From a virus: DNA of 20,130 nt. The stretch covers positions 1 to 20,130 of IMG/VR virus record IMGVR_UViG_3300027608_000209. The stretch is one strand, 5' to 3'. The notes beneath the pieces are model-generated. The model was not told the origin of the DNA, did not search any database, and worked only from the letters and a program-made list of their open reading frames with translations. The position numbers were made by a program, and so were the translations under genes. Shown here in pieces: positions 17,797 through 19,444 of this stretch (positions are counted from its first letter, which is position 1; each line of letters starts with the position of its first letter).

Positions 17797-18246
17797 CTAA
17801 CGCCGATAGCGTGCGCCACGAGGTCCGAGGTGAACTGCGGACATTCCTGTTGAAACATCTTCACCAGTTTTTTCGTCAGTCATAGACCCAGGTCGTATAC
17901 GCAAACTGCGAGTGCTTCGTGGTGGTTCAGGTCTTACAATTCCTTCAACAAAGGTATTTCGGGTCTTTCCTCCTGATGGGTTTGCAAGGAACTGTGTCAA
18001 TGCTCGTTTGTCAACTTTCATCTGAGCATCTGATAAAACAATATTATCGGTCTGACCTTGGACTCTGCCTTGATGCAATACACTAAAAATTGGTTGACCA
18101 AGGGCTTCTGTGGCAGGGGAATGCATATGTACTCTAACTTTTTTGTCAAGTAACCCTGACATGCCTGTGTCACTTAATAGGCGTACAGTGTAATTTCTTA
18201 CCTTGTGGGTTTCTTTAAATTGTTCACTATTTTCAGTGCCAGCCAT
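17797..18246 (-). CDS. Hypothetical protein, 149 aa, first gene after the large gap
   Basis: Unrecognised. The N-terminal half is a mixed alpha/beta region (VRNYTVRLLSDTGMSG, KKVRVHMHSPATEALGQ, PIFSVLHQGRVQGQTDNIVLSD) and the C-terminal third is basic and Pro/Arg-rich (PEPPRSTRSLRIRPG, ending GPRGARYRR). No clear Shine-Dalgarno site precedes the ATG at 18246; the sequence TATAATG there looks like a -10 box by coincidence. It follows the 112-bp intergenic region with the candidate promoter and hairpin, so it may be the first gene of that transcript. Confidence 0.72.
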   Translation of the reverse strand: MAGTENSEQFKETHKVRNYTVRLLSDTGMSGLLDKKVRVHMHSPATEALGQPIFSVLHQGRVQGQTDNIVLSDAQMKVDKRALTQFLANPSGGKTRNTFVEGIVRPEPPRSTRSLRIRPGSMTDEKTGEDVSTGMSAVHLGPRGARYRR

Positions 18247-18271
18247 TATACAATTTTACCAGAGACACGAA

Positions 18272-18299
18272 GAGGGACCGCCCTCAAGCAGTCCCCCTC
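18272..18299 (-). other. GC-rich hairpin in the leader of the downstream gene
   Basis: On the minus strand GGGGGAC and GTCCCTC pair (one G-U) around a 12-nt loop, in the otherwise AT-rich gap 18247-18358. There is no following T-run, so it is not a good factor-independent terminator. It lies between the candidate promoter and ATG 18246 and could be an mRNA-stabilising or regulatory leader. Confidence 0.4.
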
Positions 18300-18321
18300 G
18301 GTGGGTTAGACCTCATTAATA

Positions 18322-18351
18322 ATTATACACAACTGTGAATAAACATGTGTA
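18322..18351 (-). promoter_or_regulatory. Candidate minus-strand promoter overlapping the DnaA-box cluster
   Basis: A perfect -10 hexamer TATAAT (18327-18322) has TACACA (4/6 match to TTGACA) 18 bp upstream (18351-18346). A transcript would begin near 18315 and leave a leader of about 70 nt before ATG 18246. It overlaps the inverted DnaA-like boxes, so DnaA or a repressor could control it. The spacing is acceptable but the -35 is weak. Confidence 0.4.
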
Positions 18352-18354
18352 TAA
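18323..18354. promoter_or_regulatory. Cluster of three DnaA-box consensus sites (possible origin or DnaA-binding locus)
   Basis: Three exact matches to TTATNCACA lie within 32 bp: TTATACACA at 18323-18331 (plus), TTATTCACA at 18334-18342 (minus) and TTATACACA at 18346-18354 (minus). The outer two form a perfect 9-bp inverted repeat with a 14-nt loop. The surroundings are AT-rich and non-coding. One random match per roughly 33 kb is expected when both strands are counted, so three together are not chance if the sites act as such. A replication origin, DnaA titration site or an operator whose consensus resembles the DnaA box are alternatives. Confidence 0.6.
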
Positions 18355-18358
18355 CTAC

Positions 18359-18721
18359 TTATCGTTGGTCCCAATACTCGTCATGATTTTGCTCATAATC
18401 TGTTCTGTTGGGGTATATATCTTCAAACTGTGAAGCCAAGTGTGTAGCGGCTGGATGAATGGTCAAACCCCAATTAATAAATGATTTAGGGTAACGGTCA
18501 TACAAATGTTGCATAAGCGCTTTAGCATGGCCTTTTCCTTCACGATGGCTTTTTAAATAGTCAATGTCAATTTGAGAGTTACCATCATCATTGGTGTAAT
18601 TATCAAAAGAAACACGAGCAAGGTTTCCACTATCCATGTTGGATAATGTCAGGGAATGTGAACCTTTATCAAGTTTGCTATGGGTTACATGGAATTGACT
18701 ACTTAGGTTATTGCGATTCAT
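18359..18721 (-). CDS. GNAT-like acetyltransferase (tentative)
   Basis: 120 aa from ATG 18721 (an in-frame TTG lies one codon upstream). The core QIDIDYLKSHREGKGHAKALMQHLY (50-74) fits the GNAT strand beta4 and pyrophosphate-loop helix. The loop EGKGHA takes the place of the Q/RxxGxG/A signature, with Glu instead of Gln/Arg. The next segment (SFINWGLTIHPAATHLASQFE) matches the following strand and helix seen in phage members. The protein is shorter than most GNATs and lacks an obvious N-terminal beta1-alpha2 portion. GAGGGAG lies 7 nt before the ATG, in an 18-nt sequence identical to that of the neighbouring gene. The acceptor is unknown. Confidence 0.62.
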   Translation of the reverse strand: MNRNNLSSQFHVTHSKLDKGSHSLTLSNMDSGNLARVSFDNYTNDDGNSQIDIDYLKSHREGKGHAKALMQHLYDRYPKSFINWGLTIHPAATHLASQFEDIYPNRTDYEQNHDEYWDQR

Positions 18722-18735
18722 CAATAAACTCCCTC
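18718..18735 (-). repeat. Duplicated ribosome-binding and start region, copy 1
   Basis: The 18-nt minus-strand sequence GAGGGAGTTTATTGATGA includes the Shine-Dalgarno GAGGGAG and the ATG of the GNAT-like gene. An identical copy occurs at 19155-19172. Confidence 0.9.
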
Positions 18736-19158
18736 TTATTCACTAACTTTTTTCGTATTTTTTATTGCTTTAGGGTTGATGGCATAAGAAATATCATCTC
18801 CCTTAAACCCTTCGTCAACATTTTCATAGGGGTACACATCATAAGGTTTTCCTGATGGGTGTGAATATGCTGGGTGGCTCAAATCAATAGAGTTTTCATC
18901 TAGACGATGCCCAAGGTCTGCCCAAAAACCATCTTCTGGGTCTTCACGAGCAAGTATTACTTTTGGGTACACCGTAGCCTCAGGATGCAGTTCAATTTTA
19001 TGTATTGTTGCAGGTGCCGTGCGGTCCAACAACCCACTCTCCAACCGTTCTTTAGCCTGCCTTGTGCTTCCTGCGTGAATCCAGTCAGGGTTATCACGCC
19101 AGTTAGGGTTAGTGGTGCCATGAAACAGTTCTGGGTGAAGGTGCTCACTGGCGCTCAT
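18736..19158 (-). CDS. ADP-ribosyltransferase-like protein (tentative)
   Basis: 140 aa from ATG 19158; a TTG start one codon upstream is also in frame. The N terminus LFHGT (His13) followed by HAGSTRQAKERLE (28-40) resembles the 'HGT ... hxGs..aA..R' start of ART-fold and related phage proteins. The C-terminal part has VYPYENVDEG (108-117) and DDISYAINPKAIK (121-133), similar to 'Y.NevE.....Sy.i.P.aIk'. A complete catalytic H-Y-E triad cannot be assigned with certainty, and toxin-like or housekeeping roles are both possible. The TGATG overlap couples it to the zinc-ribbon gene. It could modify host proteins or transcription machinery, as many phage ARTs do. Confidence 0.6.
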   Translation of the reverse strand: MSASEHLHPELFHGTTNPNWRDNPDWIHAGSTRQAKERLESGLLDRTAPATIHKIELHPEATVYPKVILAREDPEDGFWADLGHRLDENSIDLSHPAYSHPSGKPYDVYPYENVDEGFKGDDISYAINPKAIKNTKKVSE

Positions 19159-19172
19159 CAATAAACTCCCTC
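19155..19172 (-). repeat. Duplicated ribosome-binding and start region, copy 2
   Basis: The same 18-nt sequence GAGGGAGTTTATTGATGA as at 18718-18735. Here it is also the last codons of the zinc-ribbon gene (EGVY stop), so it is read both as protein and as the start site of the ART-like gene. Confidence 0.9.
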
Positions 19173-19289
19173 ACAACAAGAGTCCCTAGAGCCACAAGAT
19201 TCGCAGACATAATGAGCGTGTTCAGGGCGCATTTGACCACCACACCACACACATTGCTCAGACAGGTCACAGGACTCTTCATCTGTCAT
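19158..19289 (-). CDS. 43-aa zinc-ribbon-like microprotein
   Basis: Found by reading the strand directly. It starts at ATG 19289, which overlaps the previous stop (ATGA), and ends at TGA 19160-19158, overlapping the next ATG. It contains CVWC (Cys13, Cys16) and CESC (Cys29, Cys32), a classical CxxC...CxxC zinc ribbon, plus Cys7 and a Cys38-Cys39 pair. Small zinc ribbons often bind DNA, RNA polymerase or other proteins. The target is unknown. Confidence 0.72.
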   Translation of the reverse strand: MTDEESCDLSEQCVWCGGQMRPEHAHYVCESCGSRDSCCEGVY

Positions 19290-19441
19290 GACACTATCAG
19301 AATGATGTCCCAGGAACTAGCGGCTACTTGAATGGCCTTAGATAAGGAAATGTGCTTATATCCACTTGCTTTGGCTAGATTTGTAGCAATTTTAATGGCA
19401 TCACTGATAATTACAGTGTGCACAGGATATGTTACAAACAT
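19286..19441 (-). CDS. 51-aa hypothetical protein
   Basis: Found by reading the strand directly. ATG 19441 lies 3 nt after the previous stop and the TGA overlaps the zinc-ribbon start. The product (MFVTYPVHTVIISDAIKIAT...) has a hydrophobic N-terminal strand and an amphipathic helix, and ends in a hydrophobic strand, DIILIVS. It reads like a compact alpha/beta or coiled domain. The tight packing on both sides supports it as a gene. No function is assigned. Confidence 0.55.
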   Translation of the reverse strand: MFVTYPVHTVIISDAIKIATNLAKASGYKHISLSKAIQVAASSWDIILIVS

Positions 19442-19444
19442 TAT

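Follow-up and report, generated by a model that had tools for sequence, protein, structure and literature searches.

A putative host-DnaA-responsive promoter in a mobile regulatory cassette of a probable actinophage

Related systems and layout of the locus

Host DnaA reportedly stimulates transcriptional activation of ori-lambda, in work by Szalewska-Palasz (1998, cited in PMC8203912), and at the locus considered here host DnaA would likewise act on phage transcription; there, however, activation forms part of lambda replication control, whereas here a tandem pair of DnaA boxes lies across a core promoter. In E. coli, most in vivo binding of DnaA is at box pairs with a spacing of 2 or 3 bp, both boxes being needed, and widening a 3-bp gap by 1 bp greatly reduces the binding (Stringer and others, PMC11317965). 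These double DnaA boxes (purH, polA, nrdA, mioC; PMC11317965) are tandem TTATNCACA-type 9-mers, 3 bp apart, at a promoter, as is the pair of this work, although the latter lies in a phage genome with a probably actinobacterial host and is a predicted binding site. As regards gene exchange, the promoter early stem-loop (PeSL) cassettes of T4-like phages (Arbiol 2010, Comeau 2014, cited in PMC4503421) are similar in arrangement: they too combine a conserved promoter and a stem-loop between swapped genes at an apparent site of modular shuffling. As far as they are portrayed in PMC4503421, the differences are that the present cassette occurs once per genome (PeSL several times) and in an unrelated phage, that its hairpin is placed in the leader after the promoter, with no U-run and not as an intrinsic terminator, and that it carries an exchangeable upstream element. 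The SAS/ESAS of cluster K mycobacteriophages (PMC3203893) also represent a conserved sequence, partly with inverted repeats, tied to the start codons of varied actinophage genes; nevertheless, they consist of a 13-bp sequence in 11-19 copies, while here a single long module holds a promoter and DnaA boxes (PMC3203893).

The window, that is, the whole 20,130-nt stretch of viral DNA analysed, contains the following features:

17797..18246, minus strand: downstream gene, 149 aa, no assigned function (no Pfam or PHROG match)
18247..18358, minus strand: complete cassette of promoter and hairpin, present once in each of the 94-kb and 84-kb relatives
18266..18303, minus strand: leader hairpin, 16 base pairs with a 4-nt loop, conserved fold
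18315, minus strand: predicted transcription start, inferred at 7 nt past the -10
18322..18331, minus strand: extended -10, TGTG-TATAAT; TATAAT invariant in 13 modules, also those without the double box
18323-18331, plus strand: DnaA-box match 1, exact TTATNCACA
18334-18342, minus strand: DnaA-box match 2, exact TTATNCACA; proximal box, TTATTCACA, about -27 to -19, in tandem with the distal box and 3 bp from it; relatives' variant TTATGCACA
18346-18354, minus strand: DnaA-box match 3, exact TTATNCACA; distal box, TTATACACA, about -39 to -31, holding the -35-like TACACA; relatives' variants TTATCCACA and TTATTCACA
18359..18724, minus strand: upstream cargo gene, 121 aa, no assigned function; other genes in its place in relatives
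18736..19161, minus strand: upstream cargo gene starting MSASEH, 141 aa as given in the ORF list
19158..19289, minus strand: 43-aa zinc-ribbon gene (CVWCGG...CESCGSRDSCCEGVY), far border of the variable gene slot

The genes flanking the gap all run leftward, and a search of viral contigs for relatives of the 149-aa protein returned none. A first reading of the window from its letters (the sequence-only reading) had described this as the only large intergenic gap; it is indeed a real one (18247-18358, 112 bp), but a larger one separates listed ORFs at 19162-19444. The latter is partly filled by the conserved zinc-ribbon gene, too short for the ORF list, which constitutes the constant upstream border of the slot, 38-936 nt from the hairpin in 12 distinct loci; at locus L111 the module comes directly after it. 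Starts resembling MSASEH, MSANEH or MSASDH were observed in many otherwise different cargo genes (18736-19161, L006, L022, L023, L112, L115, L119), and this common beginning may be an N-terminal tag or a start context that they share. On the downstream side, eight of nine ATGs, that of the 149-aa gene included, stand 58 nt from the CCACCGAG motif, although the downstream genes differ. A leaderless micro-ORF from ATGAGG was considered and rejected, because neither its frame nor its start codon is retained in relatives (alignment, by eye).

Box cluster, promoter core and leader hairpin

The three TTATNCACA sites first noticed have been borne out in position and strand, and are the only exact matches in the window. 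Dinucleotide shuffles gave a mean of 1.31 exact matches per window, so that the chance figure of 0.6 per 20 kb offered initially was about half of the shuffle expectation, and three matches anywhere in 20 kb are unremarkable (17 of 100 shuffles). Three within the observed span appeared in none of 1500 Markov simulations, the Poisson estimate being about 1e-6, while one-mismatch matches in the window were no more numerous than expected (25 against 26). The cluster is real, far beyond chance, and comprises two different things, a tandem pair and a box at the -10. Chance AT-rich promoter sequence might explain the site outside the pair, which is just TGTG-TATAAT; as an account of the boxes as a whole it is extremely improbable, in view of a triple-cluster probability near 1e-6 and of four distinct operators exactly conserved outside position 5.

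In fact, the first box consists of TGTG plus the TATAA of the -10. It is exact in four modules lacking the pair (L113, L115, L117, L119) and inexact in the pair-bearing L112, and is therefore a promoter element, not in itself evidence of DnaA. Thus, from the DnaA reading originally given to all three sites, 18334-18342 and 18346-18354 are kept and 18323-18331 becomes a -10 element. The outer inverted repeat was likewise rejected as a functional unit, being imperfect in L006, L008, L012 and L112, which means that the boxes, and not the palindrome, are conserved. The sequence-only reading had named, as one pattern that would speak against DnaA, relatives that keep the outer repeat and lose box bases; the opposite was seen, variation within the pair being confined to N.

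Modules carrying the pair (class a: the window, L002, L006, L008, L012 and L112) provide four distinct operator sequences only. In every one of them the pair keeps its register at -39 and -27 with a gap of 3 bp, and 8 of the 9 positions per box are unchanged, though the sequence of the spacer and the flanking genes vary. At position 5 the distal box has A, C or T and the proximal one T or G, all four bases being represented overall. The arrangement is that of a double DnaA box: both 9-mers are near the TTATNCACA consensus, stand in tandem and have a gap within 2-3 bp. The pair occurs once per record. Host DnaA probably binds it.

The promoter core does not depend on the pair for its conservation: in the minus-strand alignment, TATAAT, GAGG, ACCCACCGAG and the hairpin are kept in 13 of 13 distinct modules, and the cassette is very probably a functional leftward promoter. 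As for the hairpin, the gap gives a fold z of -3.9, and all 16 pairs are formed in the 13 distinct sequences even though seven of the pairs vary, one of them by a G-C/C-G exchange in six sequences; the G-U pairs place the hairpin RNA on the minus strand. No credible match to it was present in Rfam. An intrinsic terminator was rejected, since no U-run follows the stem and a terminator scan finds none at the hairpin. A covariance model located one copy each in the 94-kb and 84-kb relatives.

Exchange of operators and the competing readings

A three-box pattern scan of viral contigs yielded 20 stretches, eight of them contigs with the window's module; the others fell, by eye, into about seven unrelated viral lineages with DnaA-box clusters, and the same three-box geometry (2-bp inverted, 3-bp tandem) was observed in L003, L004, L005, L007, L014, L017 and L019. 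To avoid selecting on the boxes, a box-blind scan with the adjacent hairpin was also carried out (11 stretches with the strict pattern, 20 contigs with the loose one). Hits of the hairpin pattern in genome contigs look like chance matches and come without the module. The neighbouring T-rich gene has 76 relatives, the module being found only in those close to the window.

In class b (L022, L114, L115, L119) the place of the DnaA pair at the -35 region is taken by TAATTCTCA, twice, with a 10-bp period; in class c (L111, L113, L117) the operator is TAATTATACCTAAT, and in L023 it is deleted, the core and the hairpin being common to all of these. In class c, TAATTATACCTAAT and the -10 were also seen to make an inverted repeat, TAATTATAC-N8-GTATAATTA. 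The exchange affects both sides of the cassette. The window and L002 share a module 99.2% identical over 126 bp between unrelated genes, with homology resuming beyond them, while between L002 and L022 homology covers the part downstream from the -10 and reappears further upstream, the operator and the upstream gene being different, and L112 and L115 have the same upstream gene and different operators. The cassette sequence probably also serves as homology for the exchange of cargo genes.

This exchange bears on the possibility that a phage-encoded repressor or -35 activator has the repeats as its operator, the DnaA-box match being fortuitous and specificity having drifted into the TTATNCACA, TAATTCTCA and TAATTATACC classes. 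Such a regulator would fit an element exchanged while the promoter core stays, as in L112 and L115, and the likeness of TAATTCTCA to TTATTCACA, which agree in 7 of 9 positions and have almost the same location, as in one family of shifting specificity. Phage activators, lambda CII for example, moreover typically have direct repeats over the -35, and the class-b repeats are absent from the host-like genomes searched, where no signal was obtained (one one-mismatch hit, four in controls). Nevertheless, a free fifth position and a 3-bp gap are specific to DnaA sites and to host dnaA regions, and a phage regulator would often be expected to serve several promoters, while the pair is present only once per record. 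A phage regulator is, on balance, rather doubtful.

A host-DnaA-dependent replication origin, another of the options initially put forward, would agree with DnaA boxes in an AT-rich stretch and with one cluster per phage. It would not agree with the sister phages, in which the same module lacks the boxes; a DnaA-box cluster sought elsewhere in the class b and c genomes was found in none, with scattered single boxes only. In the 94,013-base relative G005 (three other relatives have 94.5-94.9 kb) the module lies within an operon that runs leftward between 29.9 and 82.8 kb, some 50 kb from DnaB and primase genes of the phage's own at 24-27 kb. The GC-skew switch that had been suggested as a check is absent at the module (77 kb in the 94-kb relative), which makes an origin unlikely, the turn occurring at the strand switch near 82.8 kb in a phage of weak skew. 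With the boxes moreover overlapping a promoter, an origin is very improbable. That the boxes merely titrate host DnaA, stopping host initiation and having no role at the promoter, can be regarded as highly unlikely as well: many replicated copies of a pair would bind DnaA, but there is one pair per genome, further boxes are not in excess, and the register to the -10 is fixed. The idea that the rest of the phage is depleted of DnaA boxes was rejected, as comparison with permuted patterns showed no depletion.

Probable host and control by DnaA

The presence of a WhiB gene in the 94-kb relative and a TerL 46% identical to that of Streptomyces phage BRock indicate that the host of these phages is probably actinobacterial, WhiB being regarded as an actinophage mark and also carried by cultured 'Ca. 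Nanopelagicales' phages (PMC10202952). Low-GC freshwater Actinobacteria would be compatible with the GC content of 0.44. The 3-bp tandem pair occurred 24 times in 395 Actinomycetia genomes (reversed control, 0), and 13 of these 24 loci, nearly all of low GC, hold dnaA. Among 41 low-GC genomes of one actinobacterial family, reached via a genome carrying the motif and hence mildly biased, 26 gap lengths were allowed (reversed control, 3 hits); the gap was of 3 bp in 15 of 34 tandem pairs and of 1 bp in 11. dnaA was present at 23 of the 25 fetched loci with 1-3-bp gaps, where the box was almost always TTATCCACA (62, as against 3 TTGTNCACA), the host of the phage itself being inferred. In two host-like loci (L169 and L176, near 1500), a further double DnaA box was observed between rhomboid-like and CrgA-like genes, the contig carrying another pair about 9 kb away.

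Among the options of the sequence-only reading, the DnaA-controlled promoter is supported, the boxes lying across a conserved promoter core with a spacing and orientation preferred by E. coli DnaA (PMC11317965) and used beside dnaA in low-GC Actinobacteria, while the origin is not. A host-DnaA-responsive promoter, set in a mobile regulatory cassette with a double DnaA box, is a probable interpretation of the locus. Comparison with relatives supports its promoter core and hairpin, the start codon at a fixed distance, the conservation of the boxes, the gene swapping on both sides and the swapping of upstream elements, whereas the binding of host DnaA to the pair is an inference. In the proposed mechanism, the double DnaA box would cover the -35 region and the spacer of the leftward TGTG-TATAAT promoter, whose transcript would begin with a leader bearing the 16-bp hairpin, followed by a start codon at a fixed distance. 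Host DnaA on the pair would repress the promoter until DnaA becomes scarce, e.g. when titrated by replicated phage copies. Given binding, repression is moderately probable; it is favoured because the pair sits across the core promoter and because extra DnaA boxes, by titrating DnaA, derepress the E. coli dnaA promoter and raise dnaA transcription (PMC8203912). Activation by DnaA from the -35 position is a possible alternative. In either case DnaA control would not be essential, since related modules replace the pair (TAATTCTCA pairs, TAATTATACCTAAT) or delete it.

More tentatively, the cassette may be a standard promoter-leader with pluggable upstream elements, in which the class-a plug is the double DnaA box, so that the level of host DnaA and its titration by replicating phage DNA would time the expression of the variable genes, sister phages plugging in other elements at nearly the same register. 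Should DnaA control hold, a phage of probably freshwater low-GC Actinobacteria would have a promoter that reads the host replication initiator, and the elements exchanged among close relatives would constitute a natural promoter set for testing the effect of DnaA on phage gene timing. The cassette, in addition, shows PeSL-like gene swapping in actinophages.
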